Origin: Calothrix sp. PCC 7103
GTDB taxonomy: Bacteria > Cyanobacteriota > Cyanobacteriia > Cyanobacteriales > Nostocaceae
Direction: 5' to 3'
NCBI RefSeq assembly: GCF_000331305.1
Contig: NZ_KB217483.1
Coordinates: forward strand, 978,604-1,042,603
Length of the DNA stretch: 64,000 nt
The translations under genes and the position numbers were made by a program. Shown in pieces: positions 6,445 to 60,654 of this stretch. The notes under the pieces are model-generated. The model saw nothing but the letters and a program-made list of their open reading frames with translations, was not told where the DNA came from and searched no databases. Each line of letters begins with the position of its first letter. Position 1 is the stretch's first letter.

Positions 6445-6459
6445 TGATAATCGTTATTA
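6445..6459. promoter_or_regulatory. Zur/Fur-type operator between znuA and znuCB
   Basis: TGATAATCGTTATTA is a 7-1-7 near-palindrome matching the known cyanobacterial Zur consensus (TGATAATNATTATCA), which overlaps the Fur consensus. Exactly the same 15-mer occurs, inverted, at 9510-9524 and 14056-14070. It is placed to control both arms of the divergent metal-uptake locus. Confidence 0.75.
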
Positions 6460-6511
6460 TAAAAAATAGTTTAACCTTAATGCAACCTTTTATTATTTTA
6501 AAGAGACCCAA

Positions 6512-6577
6512 AACCGGGTTTCTTTACGATAAATTAAGGTTTTTTAGCAATATTGAGTAAGAAACCGGGTTTCTAAA
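6512..6577. repeat. Paired AAACCGGGTTTCT repeats in the znuC leader
   Basis: The 13-mer AAACCGGGTTTCT occurs at about 6512 and again at about 6560, immediately before the ATG at 6578. Its core is itself palindromic. It leaves no obvious purine-rich ribosome-binding site for znuC, so this short repeat may have inserted into, and now forms, the mRNA leader. Confidence 0.5.
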
Positions 6578-7297
6578 ATGATAGAAGTAGAAAACTTGTC
6601 AGTGCGTTACCGAGGACGTTATGCCTTGGAAGGTGTAAGTTTTAACCTAGAGTCGAGTCAAATCGCTGGTATTATCGGACCCAACGGCGCCGGCAAAAGT
6701 ACGATGATAAAGGCGATGCTGGGGTTGATACCTGTAGCGAGTGGAGTAGTTAAGTTTAATGGGCAGCTGTTACGGCGCCTGTTATCGAAGGTTGCTTATG
6801 TACCGCAGCGAGCTAACATCGACTGGGATTATCCTGCTACGGTGTGGGATGTTGTGATGATGGCGCGGACGGTGAAAACTGGGTTATTTCGTCAACCGAG
6901 TCGTATGTCTATTGAGTTAGCTGCTGCTGCTTTAGAAAAGGTGGCAATGGCAGAGTTGAAAGGGCGCCAAATTGGAGAATTATCGGGTGGACAGCAGCAA
7001 AGGGTATTTATTGCACGCGCGTTAGCAAAGCAAGCAGATTTATTTTTATTCGATGAACCATTTACAGGGGTAGACAAGAAAACCGAAGATGTGATATTCC
7101 AAGTCTTTCAGGAACTTAAGAGTGAAGGCAAAACATTACTAGTTATCAACCATGATTTAGGTGAAACATTAAATTATTACGATAAGCTGTTACTGCTAAA
7201 TAAACAATTAATAGCCTTGGGTTCCAAAAGCGAAGTATTTACACCCAGTAATATTCAACAAGCATATGGAATGTCATTAGGTTTTATGAATAAATAA
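6578..7297 (+). CDS. znuC: Zinc/manganese ABC transporter ATP-binding protein (ZnuC-like)
   Basis: A 239-residue cytoplasmic ATPase that would power metal import with the permease at 7318-8199 and the binding protein at 5234-6253. Motifs visible are Walker A GPNGAGKST, the Q-loop region VAYVPQRANIDWDYP (the QR..DWDYP block is typical of Mn/Zn-specific members), signature LSGGQQQRVFIARALA, Walker B LFLFDEPFTGVD and the switch His in VINHDLGETL. Length is normal for the family. It starts 118 bases after the Zur/Fur-type box and is followed 20 bases later by the permease, so the two form an operon. Confidence 0.92.
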   Translation: MIEVENLSVRYRGRYALEGVSFNLESSQIAGIIGPNGAGKSTMIKAMLGLIPVASGVVKFNGQLLRRLLSKVAYVPQRANIDWDYPATVWDVVMMARTVKTGLFRQPSRMSIELAAAALEKVAMAELKGRQIGELSGGQQQRVFIARALAKQADLFLFDEPFTGVDKKTEDVIFQVFQELKSEGKTLLVINHDLGETLNYYDKLLLLNKQLIALGSKSEVFTPSNIQQAYGMSLGFMNK

Positions 7298-7317
7298 AAT
7301 ATAGAGGAAAATAATAA

Positions 7318-8199
7318 ATGTTAAATTGGTTTGTTGAGCCTTTACAATCAGAGTTTATGCGGAATGCCATCACCGTTGGTATCTTAATGGGCATTCTCTG
7401 CGCTGTTGTGGGTAGTTATATGATTGTGCAGCAGATGGGAATGATGTCTCATGCAATATCCCATTCAATATTACCAGGATTACCAATTGCTTATGTATTG
7501 GGAGTTTCGCTATCGTTAGGCGCCTTTATTGCGGGTGTGATTAGTGCCCTAGGACTAGCTTGGATAGAATCGCAATCGCGTTTAAAATTAGATACAGCAA
7601 TGGCGATTATTTTATCTATATTTACAGCGTTAGGAGTGACATTACTCAAAGTACTACCCGGCGCCAACAAACTTGATTTAATGGATATTCTATTTGGAAA
7701 CATTCTTGGGGTCAACGAAGACGATATGAAAATGACCCTAATTACAACAATAATAGTTTTAGCGTTAGTGTTTTTATTCTTCAAAGAATTACTATACTAC
7801 ACATTTGACCCCCTTGGCGCTCAAGCTGATGGAATGCCAGTGCAGTTCTATTACTTAGGTTTAGTCGTTGCCATGACCATTGCGGTTGTCGTTTCACTGC
7901 AAACAGTTGGCGCTGGCTTAGTTATTGCAATGTTAATCGGACCATCAAGCACTGCTTACTTACTAGTTAGAAAATTACACATCATGATGATATTAGGTTC
8001 CATCATTGGCGTAATATCTAGCGTTTTAGGAATGTATCTAAGCTACCACTTAGACGCACCATCAGGCGCCACAATAGTATTAGTAACAGGTTTTTCCTTC
8101 ATATTAGCCTTTTTATTCAGTCCATCCCAAGGCTTACTAACACGACCCGAACTCAAAGAATCTGTATCAAATATATTTGGGAAAAATTTCAAATTGTAA
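7318..8199 (+). CDS. znuB: Zinc/manganese ABC transporter permease (ZnuB/MntB-like)
   Basis: A 293-residue inner-membrane protein with about eight hydrophobic helices, of the ABC-3 family (ZnuB/MntB). It starts MLNWFVEPLQSEFMRNAITV, the conserved N-terminal signature in which 'PLQ..FM..A' precedes the first helix. The MMSHAISHSILPGLPIAYVL segment is also diagnostic. A purine-rich AGAGGAAAA lies just upstream of the ATG, a good ribosome-binding site. It is co-transcribed with the ATPase 20 bases upstream. Three GGCGCC sites fall within the gene, as in surrounding resident DNA. Confidence 0.92.
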   Translation: MLNWFVEPLQSEFMRNAITVGILMGILCAVVGSYMIVQQMGMMSHAISHSILPGLPIAYVLGVSLSLGAFIAGVISALGLAWIESQSRLKLDTAMAIILSIFTALGVTLLKVLPGANKLDLMDILFGNILGVNEDDMKMTLITTIIVLALVFLFFKELLYYTFDPLGAQADGMPVQFYYLGLVVAMTIAVVVSLQTVGAGLVIAMLIGPSSTAYLLVRKLHIMMILGSIIGVISSVLGMYLSYHLDAPSGATIVLVTGFSFILAFLFSPSQGLLTRPELKESVSNIFGKNFKL

Positions 8200-8221
8200 T
8201 AAATATCCTAAAATCAACATC

Positions 8222-9317: not shown

Positions 9318-9509
9318 AAAGTACTAATATATCTCCACTATTGTAGCGCGAGTAGTCTGGTATAGAACAAGGGTTACTCACAATATATAAATACTAACAT
9401 ACTTAATTCTACGTGCGTTACAGGAATAATATAACAATGCGTGACCGAATACATAATAACTTTCATAAATCAAAATAATAAAACAACTGACATAACAAAC
9501 TTAATAAAA

Positions 9510-9524
9510 TAATAACGATTATCA
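9510..9524. promoter_or_regulatory. Zur/Fur-type operator upstream of a decayed calcium-binding-repeat gene
   Basis: TAATAACGATTATCA is the exact reverse complement of the box at 6445-6459 and identical to the one at 14056-14070. It lies about 40 bases upstream of the broken gene at 9548-10287, which was therefore probably metal-regulated before it decayed. Confidence 0.65.
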
Positions 9525-9547
9525 TTCTGTAAAGAGTGCTAGCATAC

Positions 9548-10287
9548 ACAGGGCTTAGGGGGAATGGCACGAAAAAAGATCAATTTATTGTAGCTGGTGA
9601 TATTAGTGACTATAATCTAGGTATTTTTGATGGTGTATATGAAGGAGTCCCATATAAAGAATTTCAGATTTTGACTAAAGATGGTGACTAAATTGCTCGT
9701 ATTGAAGAAGGTGAAAATCTCCAACTTGTGCAAATCAAGAGTGATATTCCTGGTACAAATGCTTTAGTTTCTACAGAATACGAAGGTTTAACTCCTCCCA
9801 TACTTAGCGAACCCAAGTTCGGCACATCAGGAGATGATATTCTTGTTATCGATAAAGGAAATCAATTAGTTTTTGCCGGAGCAGGAAATGACTTAATTGA
9901 CGCAGGCGCCAGTCCAGGCAACAATCGTTTTTATGGTGGCACGGGTAATGATACATTTACTCTAGGTGAAAAAGATACAGCATTTGGTGAAGATGGAGAC
10001 GATAGATTTTTTGCTACATCAGGTGGTGGAAATGTGTTAACAGGTGGTAGCGGTTCAGACCAGTTTTGGATTGCTTCTGCAGGAATATCAGATGGCGCCA
10101 ATACTATTACTGACTTTACGCTGGTGAAGATGTTATTGGTGTTGCAGGCAGTGGCGCCAGCTTTGGCACGTTAACATTTACACAACAAAACCAAGATTTA
10201 CTAGTTAGTTTTAACAGTAGTAATTTAGCTGTCCTCAAAGGTATCCAAGCCAGTAACTTGAATGCCAACAGCTTTGTGTTCGTTTAA
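9548..10287 (+). pseudogene. Hemolysin-type calcium-binding-repeat protein, broken
   Basis: The conceptual frame starts TGLRGNGTKKDQFIVAGDIS and includes glycine/aspartate-rich RTX-like repeats (GTSGDDILVIDKGNQLVF, GAGNDLIDAG, GGTGNDTFTLG, GEDGDDRFF, GGSGSDQFWI). Such proteins are secreted and bind calcium. Two lesions are visible: an in-frame TAA at 9689-9691 inside KDGD/IARI, and a one-base loss near 10122 in DFTLGEDVIG that shifts the last ~55 residues. After the shift the frame continues to NANSFVFV and TAA at 10285-10287. The 5' end is also missing. The original product's specific role is unknown; the Zur/Fur-type box upstream suggests metal control. Confidence 0.75.
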
Positions 10288-14055: not shown

Positions 14056-14070
14056 TAATAACGATTATCA
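14056..14070. promoter_or_regulatory. Zur/Fur-type operator immediately upstream of thrS
   Basis: TAATAACGATTATCA, the exact reverse complement of the znuA/znuC box, ends 21 bases before the thrS start codon. That position would overlap the promoter or leader, as expected for a repressor site. In Anabaena a second threonyl-tRNA synthetase gene is known to be Zur-controlled and induced by low zinc. Confidence 0.78.
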
Positions 14071-14091
14071 TAGTCATATTAAATTGCTTAT

Positions 14092-15930
14092 ATGGTAAAT
14101 TCTTTGTCTCAACCGCAAGATGTACAGTCAGATAGCCAAAATATAGAGAGAATACGCCATACTTGTGCCCATATAATGGCAATGGCAGTGCAGAAGCTAT
14201 TCAAAGGGACAAAAGTGGCTATTGGCCCAGTTACCGAAACAGGATTTTTCTATGATTTTGACTGTCCGGTTAGTATAACCCCTGATGATTTGGGCAAGAT
14301 AGAAGCCGAAATGCGGCGGATAATTAAGTTAAATTTACCGATAATTCACGAAGAAGTTGAGAAACAAGATATTAGGGCGGAAATAACTAGTTTAAATGAA
14401 CCTTACAAGCTAGAGATATTAAATCGGATTCCTGATGGTGAGATAATTACTCGTTACTATATTGGCAGTCCTGAAGGTCGTAGGGTTGATGCATCACTAT
14501 TTATCGCTGAGACTTTACCACCAAAAGAGTCCTGGTGGGATTTATGTGCAGGACCACATGTTAATTCTACGAAAGAGATTAACCCCAAAGCTTTTGCGTT
14601 GTTAAATGTTGCAGGTGCCTACTGGCAAGGTGATGAAACCAAACCGATGTTGCAACGTATATATGGTACAGCTTGGGAAACACCCGAACAATTACAAGCA
14701 TATTTAAAGCAGAGGGAAGAAGCGCTACGTCGTGACCATCGCAAGTTAGGTCAAGAACTTAATTTATTTAGTATTCAAGATGAAGCTGGTGGTGGTTTGG
14801 TGTTTTGGCATCCTAAAGGTGCCGCTATTCGTTATCAAATTGAAGATTATTGGCGCCGTTCTCACATCGAAGCGGGTTATGAGTTGCTATATACTCCACA
14901 TGTGGCAAATTTAGATTTGTGGAAAACATCGGGTCACTTTGACTTTTATCGAGAAAGCATGTTTGATTCGATGGAGGTGGAAAAACAAGCTTATCAAATT
15001 AAGCCAATGAACTGTCCTTTCCATGTTCTAACGTATAAAAATAATCTTCATTCATACAGAGAATTACCTTTGAGATGGGCAGAGTTAGGTACAGTTTACC
15101 GTTACGAACGTTCGGGTGCATTACACGGATTGATGCGTGTTCGCGGTTTCACTCAAGATGACGCGCATATTTTCTGTTTACCTGAGCAAATTGCTTCAGA
15201 AATTTTAGGTGTGTTAAATCTAACAGAAAAGATTTTGTCTGACTTTGGTTTTAAGGACTATGAGATAAACCTATCTACTCGTCCAAATAAGTCGGTTGGT
15301 TCCGATGAAGTTTGGGAACTTGCCACTAATGCTCTGGTTGAGGCTTTAAATACTAAGGGTTGGAAATATATAGTCGATGATGGTGGCGGCGCCTTTTATG
15401 GTCCCAAAATAGATATTAAAATTCAAGATGCAATCGGTCGTCTCTGGCAATGTTCCACAATACAGGTAGATTTTAACTTACCAGAAAGGTTTGATATGGA
15501 GTATGTGGCGTCTGATGGTACAAAAAAACGTCCAATTATGATTCATCGCGCAATTTTTGGCTCGTTAGAAAGGTTCTTTGGTATTTTAATCGAAAACTAT
15601 GCAGGTGATTTTCCGCTATGGTTGGCGCCAGTACAAATGCGTTTATTACCCGTTAGTGATGAAGTGCGCGAATATGCTCAATTAATTGCACAAGAATTCA
15701 AAAAAGGTGGCTTACGTGTTGAAATAGATAATACAGGTGAACGTTTAGGTAAATTAATTCGCACCGCAGAGGTGGAAAAAATACCCGTCGTTGCTGTGAT
15801 TGGCAAACGCGAAGTAGAAACAAACACTTTAAGCATACGCACTCGTAAATCTGGAGATTTAGGAGCATTAACAGTAAATGATATAATTAATCGTTTACAA
15901 CAAGTAGTTACCGAAAAAACAATCATATAG
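14092..15930 (+). CDS. thrS: Threonyl-tRNA synthetase, probable low-zinc paralog
   Basis: A 612-residue class II synthetase that charges tRNA-Thr. It lacks an N-terminal TGS domain. The editing domain keeps RHTCAHIMAMAV (HxxxH) and LCAGPHVNST (Cys...His). The catalytic core keeps the three zinc ligands expected from the E. coli enzyme: Cys in PMNCPFHVL, His in TQDDAHIFC and His in MIHRAIFGSLERF. Motif 2 is YRYERSGALHGLMRVRGF and the C-terminal anticodon-binding domain starts near VRLLPVSDE-type sequence. The Zur/Fur-type box 21 bases upstream makes this the likely equivalent of the zinc-starvation-induced ThrRS of Anabaena. That assignment needs a second thrS elsewhere in the genome, which is not visible here. 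Confidence 0.92.
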   Translation: MVNSLSQPQDVQSDSQNIERIRHTCAHIMAMAVQKLFKGTKVAIGPVTETGFFYDFDCPVSITPDDLGKIEAEMRRIIKLNLPIIHEEVEKQDIRAEITSLNEPYKLEILNRIPDGEIITRYYIGSPEGRRVDASLFIAETLPPKESWWDLCAGPHVNSTKEINPKAFALLNVAGAYWQGDETKPMLQRIYGTAWETPEQLQAYLKQREEALRRDHRKLGQELNLFSIQDEAGGGLVFWHPKGAAIRYQIEDYWRRSHIEAGYELLYTPHVANLDLWKTSGHFDFYRESMFDSMEVEKQAYQIKPMNCPFHVLTYKNNLHSYRELPLRWAELGTVYRYERSGALHGLMRVRGFTQDDAHIFCLPEQIASEILGVLNLTEKILSDFGFKDYEINLSTRPNKSVGSDEVWELATNALVEALNTKGWKYIVDDGGGAFYGPKIDIKIQDAIGRLWQCSTIQVDFNLPERFDMEYVASDGTKKRPIMIHRAIFGSLERFFGILIENYAGDFPLWLAPVQMRLLPVSDEVREYAQLIAQEFKKGGLRVEIDNTGERLGKLIRTAEVEKIPVVAVIGKREVETNTLSIRTRKSGDLGALTVNDIINRLQQVVTEKTII

Positions 15931-26839: not shown

Positions 26840-26844
26840 CAAAA

Positions 26845-39575: not shown

Positions 39576-39577
39576 AA

Positions 39578-40786: not shown

Positions 40787-40853
40787 TGTTTTTGATAATA
40801 AATTATATTATTTGGCAGAGAGACCGGGTTAATACGGTCTCTACATTTTTTAA

Positions 40854-41720: not shown

Positions 41721-41746
41721 GGCATTTTCCTTGTATATTTGGTTGG

Positions 41747-44915: not shown

Positions 44916-44930
44916 TAATAATGATTATTA
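44916..44930. promoter_or_regulatory. Perfect 7-1-7 palindrome before the 105-residue protein
   Basis: TAATAAT-G-ATTATTA is an exact inverted repeat with one central base, like cyanobacterial Zur/Fur sites but with TAA instead of TGA at the ends. It lies between the end of the nik-type operon (44946) and the start at 44894. Confidence 0.5.
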
Positions 44931-45539: not shown

Positions 45540-45550
45540 GATTGTTATTT

Positions 45551-46357: not shown

Positions 46358-47220
46358 TCCTGACTTGTTTTAGGGTCGAGCAACGCGCGTAAGCTTTGAC
46401 CCAAAATTTCAAACGTTTGCACTGCAATTAATAATGCAACACCCGGTAATACTGCTAACCACCAATAACCAGCAGATAAATAACGCATTGACTCTGATAA
46501 AATAATTCCTATCGCTGGAGTTTCTGGAGAAATTCCTAATCCTAAAAAGGTTAAACCTGCTTCATGAAGAATTGCATGAGGGAATAATAAAACTAAGCCG
46601 ACTAAAAACTGCGGAACTAAATGAGGCAACATATGATGATAGGCTATCCACAATGGAGAATGTCCTAATTTAGCAGAAAGTTGTACATAGTCAGAGCTTT
46701 TGACTTGAAAAACCTCCGCGCGCAATATTCTAGCTAAACCCGACCAATGTGTTAAGGCAATAGAAATTATTAAACCTCTTGTACCACCACCTGCTGCAAA
46801 GGCGACTAAAATTATCAATACTAAGTGTGGTAAACTAAAAAATACATCTATTATCCAAGTAATAACTGCATCAACTCTACCTCCTAATGTCGCTGAAATA
46901 GTTCCAAGTATTAAGCCGAATATTGCGCTGACTGTTGCTGTTAACAAACCTACCCATAAACTCAAATTTAAACCATGTAAAGTGCGAACTAGCATATCGC
47001 GACCTAACCAGTCAGTACCAAAAGGATGTGCTAAAGTTGGTGGTTGATTTCGTGTTGACAGGGAAATTTCTAAACCTTCCGAACTAATAATGTGGGTAAT
47101 TAATAATAAAACACTTAAAATTAGTGTACACAAGCCAATCATCACCAAGATGCGACTACGACGGTTACTAAAAGAAAATCCGCGTAAAAATGAAAATGGA
47201 GATTTTGTTAAAGAAATCAT
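46354..47220 (-). CDS. Nickel/oligopeptide-type ABC permease (NikC/OppC-like)
   Basis: A 288-residue permease with a long first helix (RILVMIGLCTLILSVLLLIT), the N-terminal LAHPFGTDWLGRDMLVRTLH motif that is hallmark for OppC/NikC, and the EAA loop region (YVQLSAKLGHSPLWIAYHHM). It starts two bases after the previous permease's end and overlaps the ATPase gene, so the operon is tightly coupled. Confidence 0.92.
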   Translation of the reverse strand: MISLTKSPFSFLRGFSFSNRRSRILVMIGLCTLILSVLLLITHIISSEGLEISLSTRNQPPTLAHPFGTDWLGRDMLVRTLHGLNLSLWVGLLTATVSAIFGLILGTISATLGGRVDAVITWIIDVFFSLPHLVLIILVAFAAGGGTRGLIISIALTHWSGLARILRAEVFQVKSSDYVQLSAKLGHSPLWIAYHHMLPHLVPQFLVGLVLLFPHAILHEAGLTFLGLGISPETPAIGIILSESMRYLSAGYWWLAVLPGVALLIAVQTFEILGQSLRALLDPKTSQE

Positions 47221-47222
47221 AA

Positions 47223-48218
47223 TTATCTTTTCTTATTTCCAATACGAATGCGAGGGTCAATTATTTGGTAACTTAAATCAGCAAGACTATTACCAGTGAA
47301 TACGAAAATAGCACTAAAGAAGACAATTCCGACTAGTAAAGGAACATCACTTTTAAGCGCAGCTTGGGTAGTCGCATCACCTAAACCAGGATAGCCAAAT
47401 ACTCTTTCTGCAAGTACAGAACCTCCAAATAATTCACTCAAACTGGCAAATTGTAGCGTAATAGCAGGTAAAGCAATATTTCGTAAACCGTGATGCCAAA
47501 TAAATCCTGTTTTTGTTTCGCCTTGAGCAAAAGCGAATAAAGCATAATTACTATGTATAATTTCAATTAGCTTCTCGCGCGTATGCAAGGCAATATTTGC
47601 AACTCCTGCTAAACTCAAAGTTAATGCAGGTAAAAATAAATGTTGCAATCGTTCCCAATTAGTAACATCTTTAAGCAAAACTCCAACAGGTGCCGCGCAA
47701 CAAATAGGAGCAATTTGCCATTGAACAGCAAAAACATTCAGTAAAAGTAATCCTACCCAAAAAGTCGGACTCGATGCCAAAGTAAAACAATAAAAGCGAA
47801 TAGCTCTATCTATAACCGAATTTTCTTTTGCTCCAGCGATAATACCTAGAATGGCGCCAAAAATACCCGAAAGCAGCCAAGCTAAAGCCATCAAAGCTAA
47901 AGATGCTCCAAAGCGAGTAGCTATTACATCAGCAACAGATTGGTTATAAGTCATTGACTCTCCCCAATTACCTTTAATAAGTTGTCCCAACCAAAGGAAA
48001 AAACGAATGTACATCGGTTTATCTAATCCCCAGCGTTGAGCTATTAACTCACGTTGTTCAGATGTCATCGATAATCGACGCGCGGCGCCGACATAAGCAT
48101 CAATTGGGTCTATAGGTGATAAACTAACTAAAACAAAAGTCGCAATTGAAACTGCGAATAAGAGCAGAAACAAATGTAACAGCCTTCTTAAACTAAAATT
48201 TAATAAAGAGTTGAGCAT
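47223..48218 (-). CDS. Nickel/oligopeptide-type ABC permease (NikB/OppB-like)
   Basis: A 331-residue permease beginning FSLRRLLHLFLLLFAVSIAT, followed by the LSPIDPIDAYVG segment that is usual for OppB/NikB (GDP-like loop), RWGLDKPMYIRFFLWLGQLI and the EAA loop HGLRNIALPAITLQFASLSE. FGGSVLAERVFGYPGLGDAT is the conserved late block. It lies 27 bases after the binding-protein gene. It pairs with the next permease to make the channel. Confidence 0.92.
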   Translation of the reverse strand: MLNSLLNFSLRRLLHLFLLLFAVSIATFVLVSLSPIDPIDAYVGAARRLSMTSEQRELIAQRWGLDKPMYIRFFLWLGQLIKGNWGESMTYNQSVADVIATRFGASLALMALAWLLSGIFGAILGIIAGAKENSVIDRAIRFYCFTLASSPTFWVGLLLLNVFAVQWQIAPICCAAPVGVLLKDVTNWERLQHLFLPALTLSLAGVANIALHTREKLIEIIHSNYALFAFAQGETKTGFIWHHGLRNIALPAITLQFASLSELFGGSVLAERVFGYPGLGDATTQAALKSDVPLLVGIVFFSAIFVFTGNSLADLSYQIIDPRIRIGNKKR

Positions 48219-48245
48219 ATTTTATATATTTAACCTTTAAGTTTT

Positions 48246-49844
48246 TTAACATACCCATTTCCAATCACTTAAATTGTCCATAAGCAATCTACCCCAACTT
48301 TTTTTTTCATCAGGTGGAATACCAATATCCAAACATTTACTGACAAAATAAGTATCATTTGTATTTACTAGCCAAGCAGAAGCTGCATCACCTTTAACAC
48401 TTACTCCTGTTTCTCCATTCCACTGTACTTGTTTCCAAAAACTATTAGCTTCTTGCTCAGAAGCAGCAGTCAAAGCTTTTTCAATTGCTTCATCAACACT
48501 TTTATTTGAGTAGTAACCAGGGTTTTGAAAATCACCCTTTGCCATTGCAGTATGATAAAAAAACTGCAAATCTTGGGGGTCACGGGTTCCCATAGCATAC
48601 ATTACTACATTACTATGCATTCGCCGATCTATTTCTGCCCAACTTTTTCCTTCGACATTTACTTTAATTCCTGTGGGTTCAAGCATTTGTGCTACAGCTA
48701 AAGCTAATCCCTGACGAATAGGTTCATTTGCTGGGTAAAGCAGACTAAATTCCGCTTTTTGTCCTTGCTTTTCTAAAATTCTATCATCATCAGTGTCCTT
48801 CCAACCTGCATCAGTAAGAATTTGTTTAGCTGTTTCGACGTTGTTATCTTGAAAAGTAGATGTTGTCTCCTCCCAAGGAAAACCAGTTGCAACAGCACCA
48901 TATGCAGGCGAGCCATAACCCTGTAAAATGTCTTTTACGAGTTTTTGACGGTCGATAGCATAGTTAACAGCTTGACGTATTGCTCTATCTGCGGTGATAT
49001 CATTACCAATTAAGTTACCTTTAGGGGTTTTTCTTCCTTGATTGGGAACAGTGGGAAACATTAGACCATAATGACCTTTATTTTTAGTCACATACAAATT
49101 CATTCCCTCAATCTTTTGTGAAGCGAGGAATTGGGGAGCTTGAGCTAATTGTAATTTTCCTGCTTTTGCTGCTGCAAATACCGAATCTCCAGCGGTAAAT
49201 AAAATTACTACACGCTGAATTTGAGGTTTTTTACCATAATAGTAAGGATTTGCTTCGATAATTAATTGCTGAGTGTTATCCCATTGTACTAGTTTATAGG
49301 CGCCGGAACCAATCGGATTACGAGGAAAATTTTCATTATACTTATGTTTTGGTACAATTCCAATGGTGGTTAACTTGTTTAAAAAGGTAAATTCAGGTTG
49401 TTTGAGTCGCAATTCCAGTTCATAATTACTTGTAGCAGCAGCTTTCTCTAAAATGCTCAAATCTACTAACCCTGCATTTTGCTTAATTTGATTAAAGGTA
49501 AAAGCAACATCGGAAGCAGTTAGAGGTACACTATCAGAAAAACGAGCATCTTGACGAATTTTAATTTTCCAAACTTTGCGGTCATCGCTCAAATTATAAC
49601 TTTCTGCTAAGTCATTTATCAACTCCATATTTTCATCGCGACGCAGTAAAGTACTAAAAAAGAGAGGGTTTCCGTAGTAGTTCCATCCTTGGGTTGGGTC
49701 AAATCCTTCTTTTGCACTTACATCCCAACCGGGAGCAATAATTATTTGTGATTTTGCTTGAACAGCAGTTGCAGATGTCTTAAATATATTTTGACTACAT
49801 CCAAAAACTTGCATTAGTACTAAAACAATTATTAACCAACTCAC
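48246..49844 (-). CDS. Nickel/oligopeptide-type substrate-binding lipoprotein (first of two)
   Basis: A 532-residue family 5 binding protein (NikA/DppA/CntA type). The start is GTG 49844; the signal MSWLIIVLVLMQVFGC ends in a lipobox Cys. KIRQDARFSDSVPLTASDVA and FPRNPIGSGAYKLVQWDNTQ are family hallmarks. NRNAIRQAVNYAIDRQKLVK-like sequence lies about residue 290. It is about half identical by eye to the next upstream paralog at 50202-51860. Family members bind peptides, nickel-histidine or opine metallophores; a TonB receptor in the same operon favours a metal chelate. Confidence 0.9.
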   Translation of the reverse strand: MSWLIIVLVLMQVFGCSQNIFKTSATAVQAKSQIIIAPGWDVSAKEGFDPTQGWNYYGNPLFFSTLLRRDENMELINDLAESYNLSDDRKVWKIKIRQDARFSDSVPLTASDVAFTFNQIKQNAGLVDLSILEKAAATSNYELELRLKQPEFTFLNKLTTIGIVPKHKYNENFPRNPIGSGAYKLVQWDNTQQLIIEANPYYYGKKPQIQRVVILFTAGDSVFAAAKAGKLQLAQAPQFLASQKIEGMNLYVTKNKGHYGLMFPTVPNQGRKTPKGNLIGNDITADRAIRQAVNYAIDRQKLVKDILQGYGSPAYGAVATGFPWEETTSTFQDNNVETAKQILTDAGWKDTDDDRILEKQGQKAEFSLLYPANEPIRQGLALAVAQMLEPTGIKVNVEGKSWAEIDRRMHSNVVMYAMGTRDPQDLQFFYHTAMAKGDFQNPGYYSNKSVDEAIEKALTAASEQEANSFWKQVQWNGETGVSVKGDAASAWLVNTNDTYFVSKCLDIGIPPDEKKSWGRLLMDNLSDWKWVC

Positions 49845-49848
49845 TAAA

Positions 49849-49867
49849 TAGAATGATTATCAATATT
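49849..49867 (-). promoter_or_regulatory. Fur-like box before the first binding-protein gene
   Basis: On the minus strand AATATTGATAATCATTCTA matches the classical 19-bp Fur box (GATAATGATAATCATTATC) at about 14 positions. It ends five bases before the GTG start, so a repressor here could block an internal promoter of the operon. Confidence 0.5.
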
Positions 49868-49940
49868 AGTTTGAGTTAAAAGTTTTCTATGATACTTTTA
49901 TTTATATAGCATTCCTATATGAATTGTAAAAATTTATCCC

Positions 49941-49970
49941 CGTAGAGACGCGATTAATCGCGTCTCTACA
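49941..49970. repeat. 30-bp palindrome, second copy
   Basis: CGTAGAGACGCGATTAATCG followed by CGTCTCTACA is a perfect palindrome apart from its first base. It is identical to 23301-23330. Partial relatives occur at 26889-26912 and 59204-59219. It is a dispersed intergenic repeat. Confidence 0.85.
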
Positions 49971-50047
49971 ACGCACGGTTTTCACGAATGATTTAGGACT
50001 GCTATAGTTTGAAATTCTGCTCAAAAATAGAATTTTGACCTGTATTG

Positions 50048-50101
50048 CTAAAACACGCGCAAAAATTGCATTAGTACTAAAACAATTATCAACCAACTCA
50101 T
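50048..50101 (-). pseudogene. Duplicated start of a binding-protein gene
   Basis: ATG 50101 reads MSWLIIVLVLMQFLRVF and stops. The first 12 residues are identical to the signal peptide of the protein at 48246-49844, and the DNA is nearly identical over about 45 bases. It is a leftover of a duplicated or deleted binding-protein gene. The rest of the 357-base gap (49845-50201) contains only the palindrome and Fur-like box. Confidence 0.7.
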
Positions 50102-50201
50102 TAACCATATTAATCTTTGTGATTTGAACTGTAATGTAACACATTCACTTTGGTCGGTGGTTTTTTTTAAGAGATAAGCATATATATCTTTATTTGTAAT
50201 T

Positions 50202-51860
50202 TTACATTTTTTGACATACCCACTTCCAATTAGTAATATTAATTATGATTGAACTATTGTAACTACTGGATGTTTGATTATCCATACCAATATCTAAACA
50301 AGAGCTAATAAAATAAGTTTGATTAAGGTTAACGAGCCAAGCAGATGCGCTATCTCCTAAAGTTATAGGGCCAGTTTTCCCATTCCATTGAGCTTGTTTC
50401 CAGTATTGAAGTGCTTCATTTTCTGATGCAGCTGCCATTCCTTTGTCAAGTGCTTGGTCAACACTTTGATTTGAGTAGTAACCAGAATTTCGCCAGTCAC
50501 CTTGAGCTGCTGAACTATGATATAAATTATATAACTCTAAAGGGTCATATATTCCCCAAGGAAATAAACCAACATCCCTATGCATTCTTCGAGAAATATC
50601 CGACCAACTTTTTCCTTCGACATTAACTTTGATGCCAGCATATTTAAGCATTTGAGAAATAGCTAACGCTAGTCCTTGGGAAGTATTATTGTCGATTGGA
50701 TAAACAATTTTAAACTTTGCTGTTATTCCTTCTTTTTCAACTATTCCATCACCGTCATTATCCTTCCATCCGTCTGATGCAAGAATTTGCTTTGCTTTAT
50801 TCAAATTTCCATCTTTAATTACTGCGCTAGATACATCCCAAGGCAAACCACTGGCTGGGCTATAAGAGGGAAACCCATAACCTTCTAATACTCCTGCGAC
50901 TAATTCTTTACGATTAATTGCATAGTTAACGGCTTGACGAATTGCACGATTTGCAGTCACATTATTGCCAATTGGATTTCCTTGAGCGGTTTTACGACCT
51001 GTGTCTGGGACGTAAGGAAACATTAAGCCTAGACGAGAATAGGTTTTCAAAATATGCAATTTCATCCCCGCAATTGATTTGTTTGCAAGAAATGGAGGAA
51101 TATTAGCAAGCTGAATTCTACCTGCTTTTGCAGCTGTAAATACTGCATCGCCTTTAATGAATAGAAATACTATACGTTTTATTGCAGGTTGATTACCGTA
51201 GTAGTTGGGGTTTGCTTCAACTATCATTTGCTGCCCTTCATCCCACTGCACCAGTTGATAAGGTCCCGAACCAATAGGATGACGCCCGTAATTTGAATTG
51301 TAAGCGTGTTTTGGTACAATTCCTAATTGAGTAATGCGGTTAATAAAGGTGATTTGTGGTTTTTTCAAGTATAACTTAACTTCATAAGTACTTTTCGCAA
51401 CTGCTTTATCTAGTACTGTTACATCAGTCAACCCAGCATTCTCTTTTGCTTTATTAAATGTGTAAGCAACATCTTCTGCTGTTAGGGGTTTATTATCCGA
51501 AAAGCGAACATCTGGACGAATGTTGAAAGTCCAAACTTTTTTATCAGCACTAAGAGTATAACTTTGTGCCAAATCGTTAAGTAGTTGATGATTCTTGTCT
51601 CGACGTAATAAAGTACTTTGGAATAAGGGAGGGTCATGATATCCCCAACCGAGTATCGGGTCAAATCCTGTTGGTGAATCTCCCCACCCTAAACCAATTA
51701 CAATTTGATTTTGAGAACCCTTGCTTTGAGATATTTTATTTTTGTGTAAAGCTTGATTACATGCAGTCAGAAAAGTTACTAAAATTATTCCCAACAAACA
51801 AAATGTAATGTATTTTCGCTTGATACAACATTTATAAATACTCAGCAGCTTAATTCTCAT
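50202..51860 (-). CDS. Nickel/oligopeptide-type substrate-binding lipoprotein (second of two)
   Basis: A 552-residue family 5 binding protein with signal ITFCLLGIILVTFLTAC giving a lipobox. It shows the same hallmarks as its paralog downstream (NIRPDVRFSDNKPLTAEDVA, YGRHPIGSGPYQLVQWDEGQ, NRAIRQAVNYAINRKELVAG). The two proteins align throughout, so they arose by tandem duplication. Each may bind a different form of the ligand, or they may share the permease. GGCGCC is absent from this gene and scarce in the surrounding operon. It starts 42 bases after the receptor gene stop. Confidence 0.9.
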   Translation of the reverse strand: MRIKLLSIYKCCIKRKYITFCLLGIILVTFLTACNQALHKNKISQSKGSQNQIVIGLGWGDSPTGFDPILGWGYHDPPLFQSTLLRRDKNHQLLNDLAQSYTLSADKKVWTFNIRPDVRFSDNKPLTAEDVAYTFNKAKENAGLTDVTVLDKAVAKSTYEVKLYLKKPQITFINRITQLGIVPKHAYNSNYGRHPIGSGPYQLVQWDEGQQMIVEANPNYYGNQPAIKRIVFLFIKGDAVFTAAKAGRIQLANIPPFLANKSIAGMKLHILKTYSRLGLMFPYVPDTGRKTAQGNPIGNNVTANRAIRQAVNYAINRKELVAGVLEGYGFPSYSPASGLPWDVSSAVIKDGNLNKAKQILASDGWKDNDGDGIVEKEGITAKFKIVYPIDNNTSQGLALAISQMLKYAGIKVNVEGKSWSDISRRMHRDVGLFPWGIYDPLELYNLYHSSAAQGDWRNSGYYSNQSVDQALDKGMAAASENEALQYWKQAQWNGKTGPITLGDSASAWLVNLNQTYFISSCLDIGMDNQTSSSYNSSIIINITNWKWVCQKM

Positions 51861-51902
51861 TTGTTGTAGAAATTATTTGATAAAACACTTGATTATATCA
51901 TT

Positions 51903-54449
51903 TTAAAACTGTACTGAGACAGTTCCCAAAACTGTTAGAGGTGCTTGAGGTTGAATATAGTAAGTGTCAGTATTAAAATATTTGGTATCAAATAAATTCT
52001 TGACATTCAACCCAATTTTGTAATTATCTCGACGATAAGAAAGAGAAGCATCAACTCTTGCATAGGAAGGAAGAGTAAAAGCATTGGGTAATAAAGCTTC
52101 ACGTTCTGATACGTATACCAATCCCAGACCAACTCCTACACCTTGTAAATTACCTTTTTGTAGTTCATAAGTTGTCCATATACTAGCACTGTTTCTTGGA
52201 ATACCTGCTATATTATCACCAACAGGAATACTATTATCCTTACTAACAAATCCATCAAGGTAAGCATAGTTAGCGATGATTTTCCACCCTGGAAGTATTT
52301 CACCTGCAATATCTAACTCAACACCACGACTTTTTTGTTCACCAGTCGCAATACTAAAACGTGAGTTTGCTGGGTCAGTAGTTAAGACATTTTGCTGAGT
52401 GATTTCAAATAGGGCTAAAGTTGCAGATAGACGATTGTCAAACAAATTTTGTTTGATTCCAACTTCAAATTGTTGTCCTGTAGTTGGTTCAAATTGCTCT
52501 CCAGTTCTGCTAACTCTAAAAAATTGAGGATTATAAGAATTAGCCCAACTAAAATAAAGCGATGTTGTTTGAGTTGGTTGGTAAACAATACCGACTCTGG
52601 GTGAAATACGACTGGTCGTTTGCTCGTTAATTAATGTATTTGTAACTAGATTATCAACAGATGCAGCATTAATATCATAACGTAAACCTGCCAGTACTTT
52701 TAAATTTGGTAAAATTTCAACAAAATCTTGAACATAGACTGCTAAATTATCTGATTTTTGAATTCGATGTAGTTCTTGCTCAAAACCTGTTGCTTGGGCG
52801 CCGTAGCTTGGGTTAAAAATATCAATTGGATCCAAATTACCTCGATAGTAATCAAAATCATAACTCCAACGAGATAATTCGATACCGATTAATAAATTAT
52901 GCTTGATACTCCCAGTTTTAAATTCTCCAAACACTTCATTTTGAAGTACATAATCTTCTTGTCGCTCATTGGTTATTAAAGGAGAGCGAGGAAGTGTTCG
53001 ACGATCATCTTCTAAAGGAGAAAAATATTCTACTTGTTTAGTATCTCCATCGACAATTAACGCATTAAAGCCAGAGCGAAACTTCCACGCATTACTGAAC
53101 TTATGTTCAAAATTATAGTTAATAGCTGTCGATTGAAATTCAGCATTATTAAAATTTGGCTCGCCTAAAAATCTATTTACAGGAAGATTTAAAACCTCTG
53201 GTTCTGGTGGTAAGCCATAATCAAAAAGATAATTTGAACGCTGGTGTTCAAATTCAACTGTTAAATTCGTGTTTGGACTAAGTTTCATCGTCAATGCTGG
53301 CACCACAAAGAAACTTTCGTTTTCTCCAAAATCGCGGAAACTACCTGCATTTTGATAAGCTACGTTGATTCGATAAAGAGCAGATTTATCTTCAACTACT
53401 GGTCCGGTTAAATCTATGCTAGAACGATAAAAGTCAAAACTACCAACAGTACCATTAATATTATATGAAGACTGTTCTAATGGCTTTTTTGTAACTGTGT
53501 TTACTAGTCCACCCAACGAAAATCTACCACCATAAAGAACTGACGCTGGACCTTTAAAGAATTCTACCCTATCAATGTTCGCAATATCTCGAACTCCTAT
53601 AGCCCCAATATCACGAAAGCCATTGCGTAAACTTTGATAGGCTAAAGAAAGACCACGAAAATAATAACCTGTCAAAGATGGAGAACCACCATAACCTGGT
53701 AATTCTTGGACACCACTGACATTTTCTGTTAGCTCACCAATGCGTGTTACTTGTCTATCTTCAATTACCTGACGTGGAACTACTTGAATTGCTTGAGGTA
53801 TATCACGCAAGGGAACATTAATTTTTGTTGCAGTTGTCGCATTCGGTACTATGTACCCATCTTGTTCACCAGTTACCAACAACTCAATCGACTCTTGACT
53901 TTGTTCTGTTGCTTCGGATGCTGGTTGTTGTATAGAGGTTGTAACTGGCGCCACAATAAAAATCAAACCGTTATCACTATCATCTAACTCTACTTTTGGT
54001 AAGTTAGTTTCACCCTTTAAAATTACACGAACAGTATTTGCGTCTAGATTTGATACTAAAATCTCAGTAATTCCCGCAACAGACTTTTCTTGAAGAAAAG
54101 AATTTGTACGTGTTAACTTTAATTGCACATTGGAAATATCTGCTATAAAATTATTACCTTCACTTTTATTTATCACTTGCAATTTACTAGAATCTTGTGT
54201 CTCTAAAATTACCTCTATGCCAGTGGAAGTTTTATTTAAATTGACCTTCGTTATGTTATTAACTTGACTTGGTGTTTGTGCAAGCCAATCTTTAACGTTG
54301 GTATGATAATTTTGAACTTGACCTATGCTGGATATGTCTGTTATTGGTGCCGAAGAATTAGACTTGACATCTGCCCAAGCATACTGAGTAGTGCCTAATA
54401 CTGAAAATACAGTTAGTCCTAAATTAGCCAGGAGATACAATTTACTCAT
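51903..54449 (-). CDS. AMIN-domain TonB-dependent siderophore/metallophore receptor
   Basis: An 848-residue outer-membrane receptor. ATG 54449 begins a signal peptide (MSKLYLLANLGLTVFSVLG, then Ala-Trp-Ala); a longer frame from 54533 would put 28 residues ahead of it. An AMIN domain follows (VNNITKVNLNKTSTGIEVIL), then the plug (IDVPLRDIPQAIQVVPRQVI-like, RGLSLAYQSLRNGFRD, NIDRVEFFKGPASVLYG) and a barrel that ends TVLGTVSVQF. The FhuA/FpvA-like plug with RGFS-type motif favours a siderophore. It heads the operon of two NikA-type binding proteins and NikBCDE-like genes, implying transport of the metal complex across both membranes. A Fur box is upstream. Confidence 0.9.
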   Translation of the reverse strand: MSKLYLLANLGLTVFSVLGTTQYAWADVKSNSSAPITDISSIGQVQNYHTNVKDWLAQTPSQVNNITKVNLNKTSTGIEVILETQDSSKLQVINKSEGNNFIADISNVQLKLTRTNSFLQEKSVAGITEILVSNLDANTVRVILKGETNLPKVELDDSDNGLIFIVAPVTTSIQQPASEATEQSQESIELLVTGEQDGYIVPNATTATKINVPLRDIPQAIQVVPRQVIEDRQVTRIGELTENVSGVQELPGYGGSPSLTGYYFRGLSLAYQSLRNGFRDIGAIGVRDIANIDRVEFFKGPASVLYGGRFSLGGLVNTVTKKPLEQSSYNINGTVGSFDFYRSSIDLTGPVVEDKSALYRINVAYQNAGSFRDFGENESFFVVPALTMKLSPNTNLTVEFEHQRSNYLFDYGLPPEPEVLNLPVNRFLGEPNFNNAEFQSTAINYNFEHKFSNAWKFRSGFNALIVDGDTKQVEYFSPLEDDRRTLPRSPLITNERQEDYVLQNEVFGEFKTGSIKHNLLIGIELSRWSYDFDYYRGNLDPIDIFNPSYGAQATGFEQELHRIQKSDNLAVYVQDFVEILPNLKVLAGLRYDINAASVDNLVTNTLINEQTTSRISPRVGIVYQPTQTTSLYFSWANSYNPQFFRVSRTGEQFEPTTGQQFEVGIKQNLFDNRLSATLALFEITQQNVLTTDPANSRFSIATGEQKSRGVELDIAGEILPGWKIIANYAYLDGFVSKDNSIPVGDNIAGIPRNSASIWTTYELQKGNLQGVGVGLGLVYVSEREALLPNAFTLPSYARVDASLSYRRDNYKIGLNVKNLFDTKYFNTDTYYIQPQAPLTVLGTVSVQF

Positions 54450-54545
54450 GAAGGTTTTAATATTGTATTGACAAAACAAAGCTGGCGCCTGCAATGGAGC
54501 AAGAGCAACTGATGTACTTATACTTAAACTCAAGTTACATTATAA

Positions 54546-56893: not shown

Positions 56894-58354
56894 TTAAGTG
56901 ACGCGGCGCCAATGAGTTTCGTTATTAGGTAAATCAATTAAGTTAACCCCTATTACCTGAAGTTCATTTCGTAAGCGGTCGCTATCTGCAAAGCGCTTTT
57001 CTTTACGGGCAAGAGAACGCTGTTCAACTAAGTTTTCAATAAAACTATCATCTCCCTGGTATTGCTGTTTGGTATCATTTGTCACGTTAGCTTCTAAGCC
57101 AAATATGTCTGCTAGATGTATTAGCGTCTGCCAGCGCTGTTGCAATTCGGCTCCAGACATTCGACTTTCGCCTTGATGTAAAATAGCATTACACTCGCGT
57201 CGTAACGTTTTTGCTAGTTCAAATAAAATAGCTAAACCAGATGAAGTATTAAAGTCATCATCCATTGCTGCTTGAAAACGATTTATTTCTACAGGTTCAC
57301 CAGTTTGGTTTACTGATTCTTCTAAATTCCAACCCAACTGCTGTCCATATTTATAGCCACATAGCAACCCATCTTTGAGAGTTTCCCAACTATTTTGGGC
57401 GGCAGATATTGCAGATGGCGTAAAATCTAACGGTTTGCGGTAATGGGCTTGCAGTACAAATAATCGTACTGCCATCGGGTCAACACCTGTGTTTAGCAGC
57501 TGACGAATCGTGGTAAAGTTCCCAAGAGATTTAGACATTTTCTCACCGTTAACTGTCACCATGCCGTTGTGCAACCAGTATTTTGCTAGCGCTTTCCCCG
57601 TCAGTACCTCCGATTGAGCAATTTCATTTTCATGATGGGGAAAAACTAAATCTCCACCACCACCATGAATATCAATAGTTTCGCCCAACCGAGAACGAAT
57701 CATTGCCGAGCATTCAATATGCCAACCTGGGCGCCCCATACCCCAAGGAGATTCCCATCCTGGTTCCCCAGATTTCGATGCTTTCCACAAGGCAAAATCA
57801 CACGAGTCTTGCTTTTTGTTACCATCATGGTTAGATGAGTCTAGGCGCCCGCTAGCGTCAGAAAGCATCTGCTCAAGCTGCCTTTTGGATAACTTGCCAT
57901 ATTCAGGAAATAAGCGCACATTGTAATATACATCACCATCGACTGCGTAAGCATAGCCTTTTTCCTCTAATGCTTTGATTAGTTGATGAATAGAAGAAAT
58001 ATGCTCGGTTACGCGGGGGTATTCTGAAGCATCCAGTACATTTAAGCGACGAATGTCTTCAAAATAAGCATTGATAAAACGCTCAGAAACCTCGCTCATC
58101 GAGCTTCCCTCCGCTTTCGCACGGTTCAGAATTTTATCATCAATATCTGTAAAATTTTGTACATAGCGTACCTGATAACCCCGCCATTTTAAGTAGCGAC
58201 GCACAATATCCCACACTATATAAGAACGAGCATGACCAAGATGGCAGTAATCGTAAACCGTAACACCACAGCAATACATTGTTACCTTACCAGGTTGTAC
58301 TGAAGTGAAAGGTTGTTTGCTTGAAGTAAGAGTATTGTAAATAGTTAGGGTCAT
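56894..58354 (-). CDS. cysS: Cysteinyl-tRNA synthetase
   Basis: A 486-residue class I synthetase charging tRNA-Cys. HIGH-type motif is [15 protein letters not shown] appears as [11 protein letters not shown]. The structural zinc ligands known from the E. coli enzyme are kept: Cys in [11 protein letters not shown], Cys in GWHIECSAM and the His/Glu of [12 protein letters not shown]. It lies 18 bases after a stand-alone hisI. CysS, HisI and COG0523 genes clustered together are a known sign of zinc-starvation paralogs (the COG0523/Zur regulon of Haas and colleagues). Whether this is the only cysS or an extra copy cannot be told from the window. Confidence 0.93.
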
Positions 58355-58372: not shown

Positions 58373-58729
58373 TTAGATAAGGACAAAAGTTTTTATTGGT
58401 ACAGAATTAAAAAAGCAACTTCTTACACCAGTGTGACAAGCAATATCCCCAACTTGTTCAATTTTCAGCACAATAGTATCACCATCGCAATCGTAAAGTA
58501 TTTCTTTAATTTTCTGGATATGTCCGCTACTACCCCCTTTGTGCCATAATTCGTTACGTGAACGGCTCCAATAGTGTGCTTCGTTAGTTTTTAGGGTGCT
58601 ATATATTGATTCTCGGTTCATCCATGCCATCATCAGGATAGTGCCGTCTTGATAATCTTGGGCAATAGCAGGAATTAAACCTTTCTCATTAAACTTTAGT
58701 TGTTCAATCCACAAAAAATTTTGATTCAT
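58373..58729 (-). CDS. hisI: Phosphoribosyl-AMP cyclohydrolase, stand-alone form
   Basis: A 118-residue enzyme for the third step of histidine synthesis (ring opening of phosphoribosyl-AMP), a zinc metalloenzyme. Motifs are the mid-protein SRNELWHKGGSSGHIQKIKE, YDCDGDTIVLKIEQVGD (Mg/Zn Asp residues) and ACHTGVRSCFF with the zinc cysteines. Most cyanobacteria carry a fused hisIE gene for the housekeeping enzyme, so a separate hisI next to COG0523 and cysS fits a low-zinc backup copy. It precedes cysS by 18 bases. Confidence 0.93.
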   Translation of the reverse strand: MNQNFLWIEQLKFNEKGLIPAIAQDYQDGTILMMAWMNRESIYSTLKTNEAHYWSRSRNELWHKGGSSGHIQKIKEILYDCDGDTIVLKIEQVGDIACHTGVRSCFFNSVPIKTFVLI

Positions 58730-58781
58730 TTGTACTTGATCTCAGGCTTATTCTATACTATGGTAGAAAACTTACCATTTT

Positions 58782-59112
58782 TTAATAAGTTTCAACAATG
58801 ATATAATCTATTTCTTCTCGCTCTAAAATTTGGTAAACAGAATCGACTAAACCTTCATTAATTGTGCAACAATATACAACCGTTGCTCAATTTAACTATG
58901 TCTTTATCGATTGAAACTACCGAATGACTATCAATATCACCAAATTCATTGATTAGCACAGCTATTTTCAAATTATGCTTATTTTTCAAAACATGGTTCA
59001 GTAGCGTAGTTTTACCGCTGCCATTGGCGCCCATAATTATCGTAACAGGCATTTCCTGCTTCGGGATAGTGCCCAAAAATAAGAGCGAAGCTGGTGTGGT
59101 TAAAGTTGCCAT
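58782..59112 (-). pseudogene. COG0523 (CobW/YeiR-like) GTPase, frameshifted and truncated
   Basis: ATG 59112 starts a copy closely related to the gene at 59313-60404: Walker A ANGSGKTTL, then LINEFGDIDSHSVVSIDKDI and SNGCI. An extra T at about 58870 shifts the frame right inside the CxCC metal motif. The original frame continues CCTINEGLVDSVYQILEREE and IDYIIVETY to TAA 58782-58784. The C-terminal two-thirds is missing. It directly precedes hisI-cysS, so it was probably the first gene of a zinc-economy operon. Confidence 0.85.
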
Positions 59113-59312
59113 AATTCACCCTTCGATTTAAGCTTGATTCCTTTTTTCTTTCGAGCCACATAGAAGATTTGCACTATATGCTAGTTAATATCTTTGCCAA
59201 TTTTCGTAGAGACGCGATTTCATCACATTAAAAATAGTTATAAACTACTATTTTTGATTTATTCTTTAATAGTAAATTATAACTTAATAATTAATAACTT
59301 AACACATCTTAA

Positions 59313-60404
59313 TTATACCAGACATTCGTTAAGTAAAAAATGAATTTTATTTGTATCGAGGTGTCTACCAATAAACACAACTTCATTTTTAGGAGATGTT
59401 TTCCATTCAGAAGCATCTAATTGATAACGAGGATCACTCAATTGAAAAATATGCCGAAGGGGACTATTATCAAACCACAAAATACCCTTAGCTCTAAATA
59501 CATCTTTTGGCATTTCTTCAATTAAGAATTTCTCAAATTTTTCAACATCAAACGGTTTATTAACTTGGAAAGACACTGATACAAATCCATCATTGTCTAG
59601 GTGCTGGGAATCGTGACCGTGATGTTCATGTTTATGGTTATGATGCTCGTGATGATGTTCATGCTCATGGTTGTGGTCATAATGCTCGTGATTATGGTTA
59701 TGATTATGATGCTCGTGCTGATGTTCTTCTTTTTGAGGAGTATATAAATCTGAAGGGGTTAATCCGACACCGAGAATTAATGGCAATGCAACTTTTCCGT
59801 GAGTAGTTTGCAAGATTCTTGGTGAATCTTTAACGTCGTGGACAAAATTTTCTAATTCTTGAAGTTTTTCCGGTGTCGCAAGGTCAGTTTTATTGAGAAT
59901 AACAATATCCCCATAGGTAATTTGTTTCAATGCTGCTTCACTTTGAAAATGTTCTGCATCAAAAGATTCGGCATCAACTACAGTCAAGATAGAATCAAGA
60001 TTTGTAAAATCTCTTAGTTCTGTTCCCAGAAATGTCAACATAATTGGTAATGGATCAGCGACACCTGTGGTTTCTACCACCATATAATCAACACGGTCTT
60101 CACGTTCTAAGACTCGATAAACAGCATCAACTAATCCATCATTGATAGTACAGCAAATACAACCGTTGTTTAATTCCACCATATCATCGTCGGTAGAAAC
60201 TAGCAATTGACTATCAATATTAATATCACCAAATTCATTGACTAAAACAGCAACTTTTAAATTTTGTTTGTTCTGAAGAATTTCATTTAACAATGTAGTT
60301 TTACCACTACCCAAAAATCCTGTGATTATAGTAACAGGCATTCCCATTTTAGGAATGTTATTAATAATTTCTGAAGTCGAAGCTGTTGCATTTAAAGCCG
60401 TCAT
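59313..60404 (-). CDS. COG0523-family GTPase with His-rich metal loop (zinc chaperone-like)
   Basis: A 363-residue P-loop GTPase thought to deliver zinc (or cobalt) to target enzymes. Walker A GFLGSGKTT, the CxCC metal motif NGCICCTIND, Walker B VVETTGVADPLP and the base-specificity NKTD are intact. Residues about 230-275 are a striking His/Glu/Asn-rich loop (EEHQHEHHNHNHNHEHYDHN and onward) that can bind several metal ions. The C-terminal CobW-C domain ends in HFLLNECLV. It is upstream of the broken paralog and hisI-cysS on the same strand. A Zur/Fur-type box lies 236 bases before its start. Confidence 0.93.
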   Translation of the reverse strand: MTALNATASTSEIINNIPKMGMPVTIITGFLGSGKTTLLNEILQNKQNLKVAVLVNEFGDINIDSQLLVSTDDDMVELNNGCICCTINDGLVDAVYRVLEREDRVDYMVVETTGVADPLPIMLTFLGTELRDFTNLDSILTVVDAESFDAEHFQSEAALKQITYGDIVILNKTDLATPEKLQELENFVHDVKDSPRILQTTHGKVALPLILGVGLTPSDLYTPQKEEHQHEHHNHNHNHEHYDHNHEHEHHHEHHNHKHEHHGHDSQHLDNDGFVSVSFQVNKPFDVEKFEKFLIEEMPKDVFRAKGILWFDNSPLRHIFQLSDPRYQLDASEWKTSPKNEVVFIGRHLDTNKIHFLLNECLV

Positions 60405-60639
60405 AATATGTCATCCTCTGGTTTAGTCAAGATTATGTGTTTTTGTCTTGTAAATTTTTGATGCATCATCGGGAGTGAAGTAAGTCTATAACTAGTCCAA
60501 TGCCAAACTTTTGAGAACACATAGAATTTTTAGGTGGTTCGACACAGGCAAGAGTGACAAGTTCGTTGCAGCTTATCGTTTTCCTTGAGGTTAAAGTTTT
60601 GCCAGACTCAACTATAGAGCTTACCATACCTAGTAAAAG

Positions 60640-60654
60640 TGAGAATCGTTATCA
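60640..60654. promoter_or_regulatory. Zur/Fur-type box upstream of the COG0523 gene
   Basis: TGAGAATCGTTATCA fits the 7-1-7 consensus (TGATAATNATTATCA) with two changes. It shares the ATCGTTAT core with the znu/thrS boxes. It lies 236 bases above the GTPase start, far for a simple operator, so an intervening promoter or leader RNA is implied. The rest of 60405-60966 shows no convincing gene. Confidence 0.55.

Follow-up and report, generated by a model that had tools for sequence, protein, structure and literature searches.

A predicted Zur regulon in a scattered zinc island of Calothrix sp. PCC 7103, with putative operators at RTX-type and lanthipeptide genes

Known Zur systems and the Calothrix locus

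In Anabaena sp. PCC 7120, the Zur (FurB) regulon includes znuABC, hemB2, folE2, chaperones, and receptors (PMC6103462), with thrS2, COG0523 genes, and TonB receptors counted among its members (PMC6103462, PMC10957091; the papers cited here by PMC number are drawn on in part). The thrS2 gene of Anabaena is repressed by Zur and is upregulated 200-fold in zinc deficiency (PMC4787780). Genes of the same kind are found in a stretch of 64,000 nucleotides of Calothrix sp. PCC 7103 (contig NZ_KB217483.1, positions 978,604 to 1,042,603; hereafter the window), where similar operator-like boxes stand near znuA/znuCB, thrS2, and a COG0523 gene. Judged from the DNA sequence, we give a probability of about 0.88 to the reading that these boxes are Zur operators and that they control znu, receptor, COG0523, thrS2/hemB2, RTX-type, and lanthipeptide genes in a scattered zinc island. 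The core of such a regulon is already known in kind from Anabaena (PMC6103462). The zinc link of the lanthipeptide and secreted RTX-type genes, on the other hand, seems to be new; neither is named in the parts of the Anabaena papers considered here.

Several other described systems resemble parts of this locus. SynZur of Synechococcus WH8102 (PDB 7NE9), which activates a metallothionein gene as well, binds zinc through eight ligands that are all kept in the candidate Zur of Calothrix. ZepA, a Zur-controlled zinc exoprotein of Anabaena (PMC10957091), shares with the RTX-type gene the secreted-type product, the Zur sites, and the zinc neighborhood; compared by description only, its 915-bp open reading frame differs from the RTX-type protein of 567-583 amino acids with RTX repeats. 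Uropathogenic E. coli has a Zur-repressed RTX operon, hlyII (PMC12846084), which likewise combines an RTX-type gene with Zur control (putative in our case), but only the RTX repeats are shared and no sign of toxin genes or function is seen here. The genes for the zincophore [S,S]-EDDS in Amycolatopsis (PMC4993170) are natural-product genes recognized via Zur sites, whereas a ribosomal lanthipeptide, known from its genes alone, is at issue here. That lanthipeptide is of the class II mersacidin/lichenicidin type (LanM TIGR03897, precursor TIGR03898), from which it stands apart by its Zur-type sites and its zinc-gene neighbors.

The boxes and their probable regulator

The 17-mer ATGATAATCGTTATTAT occurs three times in the window, at 6444-6460 (+ strand), 9509-9525 (- strand), and 14055-14071 (- strand), as an initial annotation had stated, and no other exact copy exists in the genome of 11,584,393 bases (11.58 Mb), all three lying inside 7.6 kb of the window. 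The variant which that annotation had placed before a COG0523 GTPase is present as well (60639-60655, 3 of 17 bases different from ATGATAATCGTTATTAT). With up to three mismatches allowed, the window contains seven matches against 0.72 expected (maximum of four in 100 shuffles), which bears out the claimed excess over chance. Identity among the three exact copies stops at, or no more than two bases beyond, the ends of the 17-mer; they therefore do not derive from a longer repeat, and a longer duplicated segment was rejected as their origin. As only 0.001 identical triples are expected among eight sites drawn from the matrix described below, the exact triple is also more than motif likeness. The operators had been proposed to be recent or constrained; constraint is supported, but recency is not since the orthologous sites vary in relatives. 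The thrS2 box of one related genome (G001) is the same as here, and Calothrix sp. PCC 7716 and genome G004 differ at both thrS2 and znuC. The 15-mer at 60640 is found in identical form before thrS2 in four relatives (L083, L085, L086, and L087).

The upstream regions of 30 znuC and 30 thrS loci, obtained from searches of 41 genomes, were used to build a matrix from 18 sites, none of which came from this genome or from G001 (four loci with an absent, distant, or weaker site, L053, L055, L057, and L059, did not enter the training). The four window boxes score 22.8 (6445-6459), 23.6 (9510-9524), 20.1 (14056-14070), and 21.1 (60640-60654), whereas Markov sequence would give 0.25 sites of at least 14 per 64 kb. 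Five hits of at least 17 were found in the window versus a mean of 0.04 with 200 column-permuted matrices, overlapping hits of one site being counted separately. Further window sites are located at 44916-44930 (21.0), 54551 (15.5), 49848 (14.1), and 44120-44134 (11.4), and Zur-type sites also occur just beyond the window at hemB2, a HAF-repeat gene, and the lanthipeptide genes. A hit at 59689 (15.7) was discarded as spurious, lying within a His-rich coding repeat of the COG0523 gene. Across the loci compared, a site is found 27-36 bp before the match start in all ten thrS2-class loci (own genome included) versus within 150 bp in none of the 20 thrS1-class loci, and a score of at least 13 within 150 bp was obtained for 12 of the 15 closest znuC loci versus none of the remaining 15. 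Conserved operator-type sites of the 7-1-7 pattern are thus present before zinc-uptake and thrS2 genes, and the four window boxes are very probably Zur operators.

The first of these boxes lies 191 bp from znuA (5234..6253, - strand; zinc-binding importer protein, PF01297, E 1.8e-79) and 118 bp from znuC (6578..7297, + strand; ATPase, PF00005, E 2.3e-28), which is followed by znuB (7318..8199, + strand; permease, PF00950, E 1.3e-74). The box at 14056..14070 is located 21 bp upstream of thrS2, encoding a second threonyl-tRNA synthetase (14092..15930, + strand; TIGR00418) that is 56% identical to the thrS1-class copy at C7:5833009. The box at 60640..60654 stands upstream of a His-rich COG0523 GTPase gene (59313..60404, - strand; PF02492 and PF07683), next to which lie a broken second COG0523 copy (58788..59112, - strand), hisI (58373..58729, - strand; NF000768, E 8.7e-50), and cysS (56894..58354, - strand; TIGR00435, E 2.3e-167). 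The idea that all four neighbors are zinc-related agrees with the family models at znuA/znuCB, thrS2, and the COG0523 gene before hisI and cysS, but fails at 9510, where a decayed RTX-type gene stands. A DUF1636-type gene after thrS2 (region 15937-17318) is cut at about 37 residues near an ISL3-type transposase, and pieces of it and of thrS2 recur in a related locus (L109 5412-5619).

Six Fur-family genes are present in the genome. The protein encoded at C7:5858356 has its best match in SynZur and, by eye, retains all eight zinc ligands, namely D77, H79, C95, H115, and the Cys4 site, while the other five are without C95 and H115. A candidate for the zur gene sought is thus available, the only one of the six with the full set of ligands. 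Fur-family boxes resemble each other, and with six such genes and two TonB receptors of the siderophore or B12 type, the boxes could instead belong to the iron regulator Fur or the peroxide regulator PerR, the receptors and the lanthipeptide then answering iron or oxidative stress. The published consensus of Anabaena FurA (PMC4005646), however, is missed at 7-10 of 19 positions by seven window sites, the same as by 400 random window positions, and FurA boxes were rejected on this ground; moreover, the sites go with zinc genes, and Zur control of thrS2 is proven in Anabaena (PMC4787780). With the comparison of boxes confined to FurA, we consider Fur or PerR control very unlikely. The earlier suggestion of a single regulator gains support, for a Zur-type protein, from the sites at znuA/znuCB, thrS2, and the COG0523 gene and from the lack of likeness to the FurA consensus. 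An additional Zur-type gene lies within the zinc clusters of Calothrix sp. PCC 7716 and genomes G011 and G114 (L112 9367-9771, L122 13410-13811, and L232 10566-10970), the first two being 53-57% identical; in all three, His replaces the sensory D77, a change known among cyanobacterial Zurs. No such extra gene was found near the window.

A number of points weigh against Zur control of the whole set. The zur locus carries no matrix site of at least 13, and three of the genome's Fur-family loci, zur included, showed none of at least 15. The training sites were selected by likeness to the 7-1-7 pattern, and the COG0523 box is 235 bp away from its gene. Genome-wide, up to two mismatches to the 17-mer give 7+11 (18) matches versus 17+8 (25) for the reversed pattern, and because there is no enrichment, the loose matches are mostly background. 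They were rejected as regulon members (one sits inside thrS1, at C7:5834636). A looser pattern derived from relatives gives 43 sites versus 34 for its reverse, a slight enrichment; six of the 43 fall between C12:985048 and C12:1046600, where simple arithmetic predicts about 0.3 in 80 kb. Finally, the sites at LanM (15.6) and LanA (17.1) are the weaker ones of this genome.

If Zur is indeed the regulator, Zn-Zur (most likely the product of C7:5858356) would occupy the 7-1-7 sites near the promoters when zinc is sufficient and keep the genes off. In zinc starvation, Zur would leave and the set would be expressed, comprising the ZnuABC importer, outer-membrane receptors with ATP-binding cassette (ABC) permeases, a zinc-chaperone GTPase, and second copies of the zinc-linked enzymes thrS2, hemB2, and perhaps hisI and cysS. 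We infer binding, repression, and zinc response, as well as any role of the RTX-type protein and the peptide, from the genes and sites.

A probable scattered island with a decayed RTX-type gene and TonB receptors

In Calothrix sp. PCC 7716, a stretch of 19.5 kb holds a binding protein, FecCD, an RTX-type gene, znuABC, COG0523, folE, a Zur-type gene, hemB, and thrS2 (folE, hemB, and some others were named from the sequence by eye). The counterparts in this genome are dispersed from C12:972433 to C12:1048222, and similar zinc clusters are found on plasmids of Trichormus variabilis, Gloeocapsopsis dulcis, and Dolichospermum. The window genes are probably what is left, in dispersed form, of a zinc island that relatives and plasmids still carry in one piece.

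The box at 9510..9524, an exact copy of the 17-mer, lies between xisH (192 bp off, on the opposite strand) and, 47 bp downstream, the remnant of an RTX-type gene (9572..10284, + strand) that is truncated and frameshifted and matches residues 330-567 of a relative of 567 amino acids. PF00353 was found on its open piece at 9728-10174. Over its final 54 residues, the remnant shows 100% identity to Calothrix PCC 7716, and over the rest 77%. The meaning of the box was drawn only from relatives. Full-length genes, encoding proteins of 567-583 amino acids with RTX repeats, are present in Calothrix PCC 7716, a metagenome-assembled genome of Scytonema hyalinum, and the Acaryochloris marina plasmid pREC1 (51.5% identical over its length). 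In all three, a box (25.0, 18.5, and 23.2) is located 32-104 bp upstream with zinc or receptor genes around, and the truncated copy of G114 also has one (21.1) about 220 bp upstream. A fragment in G001 is without its own box, and no box of at least 12 was seen at six loci whose frames of 540-571 amino acids resemble the RTX N-terminus (40-43%). The box might alternatively serve xisH-xisI, as xisH is intact and starts 192 bp from it, but the box precedes the RTX gene in the three full-length relatives and accompanies the truncated copy of G114 too, which makes this alternative highly improbable. The comparison with relatives supports the view that the 9510 box is an operator left over from the island's decayed RTX-type exoprotein gene. 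An AlphaFold model of the RTX-type protein, based on two input sequences, reached a mean predicted local distance difference test score (pLDDT) of 37.

Two receptor systems occupy the middle of the window. The first consists of a TonB receptor, a DUF7676 protein, a binding protein, and a FecCD permease (38526..43834, - strand), with the site at 44120-44134 scoring 11.4. A FecCD fragment at window positions 2-490 shares 88% identity with a relative. Directly upstream of it (L110 8999-9900), a stretch that resembles the receptor at 41747-43834 carries a site (18.3) of its own, and the pair suggests an incomplete duplicate of this receptor system. The second comprises a siderophore-type TonB receptor, two NikA/CntA-like binding proteins, two permeases, and two ATPases (44946..54533, - strand), with the weak sites at 54551 and 49848. 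The site at 44916..44930, among the strongest of the Zur type, lies 21 bp before a frame of 105 amino acids (44577-44894) with no Pfam match. The second system (44.9-54.5 kb) is no more than a possible regulon member; its orthologue on plasmid C of T. variabilis has a site of 19.2 beside a non-ribosomal peptide synthetase, G011 has a weak site 459 bp off, and G038 has no site. On plasmid C (L259, NC_007412.1 18545-39103), the synthetase is divergent from the TonB receptor and NikA-like importer with the site between them, a set that is possibly a metallophore system. A gene for the protein adenylyltransferase SelO (54956-56659) separates the receptor operon from cysS.

The lanthipeptide cluster

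At the end of the window, a peptidase C39 ABC exporter gene (60967..63114, - strand; PF03412, 64% identical to a Trichormus exporter) is followed by LanM, a lanthipeptide synthetase gene whose in-window part spans 63151..64000 (- strand; whole gene C12:1041754-1044900, TIGR03897, E 1.6e-277). Outside the window lie a box 66 bp upstream of LanM (C12:1044967-1044981), the gene for a LanA precursor of 77 amino acids (C12:1046295-1046528, TIGR03898), and HlyD (C12:1046649-1047974), with the LanA site situated in the LanA-HlyD gap. The cluster thus has the LanM, leader-bearing precursor, and peptidase-ABC exporter of class II. A secreted-looking HAF-repeat protein (C12:1045172-1046176; L260 6173-7177) has a site of 18.6 just upstream and only distant relatives.

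A precursor search of plasmid records gave four matches, in Dolichospermum DET69, two T. variabilis strains, and Mesobacillus; the comparison of zinc-linked clusters covers this genome, Dolichospermum, and T. variabilis ATCC 29413 (T. variabilis 0441 and Mesobacillus were left out). The Dolichospermum cluster borders on znuABC, followed farther off by GTPases, folE, and thrS2, and that of T. variabilis ATCC 29413 is about 6 kb from thrS2. The two plasmid clusters have sites of 17.3 and 25.0 before LanA and of 21.1 (upstream of the gene preceding LanM) and 19.5 at the LanM operon, so that Zur-type sites stand ahead of both LanA and the LanM operon in three of three genomes, in differing gene orders. 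Three other cyanobacterial LanM loci, out of six cyanobacterial records among the 30 of 35 matches listed, served as controls and showed no site above 12.5 in 45 kb; the two annotated ones have no zinc-uptake genes, and the third is unannotated. The lanthipeptide boxes might be there by chance or be stray copies from neighboring zinc genes, as this genome's are weaker than its znu and thrS2 sites. This seems unlikely, because the same two promoters carry them in three genomes despite different gene orders and because no more than 0.1 sites of at least 15 are expected per locus. Membership of the lanthipeptide cluster, like that of the RTX-type exoprotein gene, in the putative Zur regulon is therefore supported, and the cluster would belong to the zinc island through the predicted sites at its precursor and LanM operon. 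No link between Zur and lanthipeptides was found in the titles and abstracts listed, a part of the literature on lanthipeptides and zinc with subscription journals mostly outside its scope, and such a link is absent from the parts considered of PMC4993170, PMC11196684, and PMC8600333, which contain related words.

Given the Zur-type sites ahead of its precursor gene and of the LanM operon, production of the peptide in zinc starvation is probable. Known members of the mersacidin/lichenicidin family are antibacterial. The precursor falls in this family (TIGR03898), and it is only slightly short of an even bet that the product is a lantibiotic released in zinc starvation against competitors and not a zinc carrier. 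The close linkage to uptake receptors and importers and the Cys/His motif HTKTCxHCC, common to two of three LanA cores, speak against a lantibiotic without being decisive. A bolder and rather less likely idea is that of a ribosomal zincophore. Here a class II lanthipeptide under Zur control, with Cys and His in its core, would be exported in zinc starvation by the peptidase-ABC/HlyD system and, once it has bound zinc, brought back into the cell by the island's TonB receptors and ABC permeases.

Should Zur control the lanthipeptide cluster, soil and bloom-forming cyanobacteria would have a peptide natural product governed by a trace metal, and a zinc chelator would offer a simple switch for its expression. 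Whether ribosomal peptides serve as zincophores could then be asked directly. The RTX-type gene would be the second exoprotein in the extracellular zinc response opened by ZepA.

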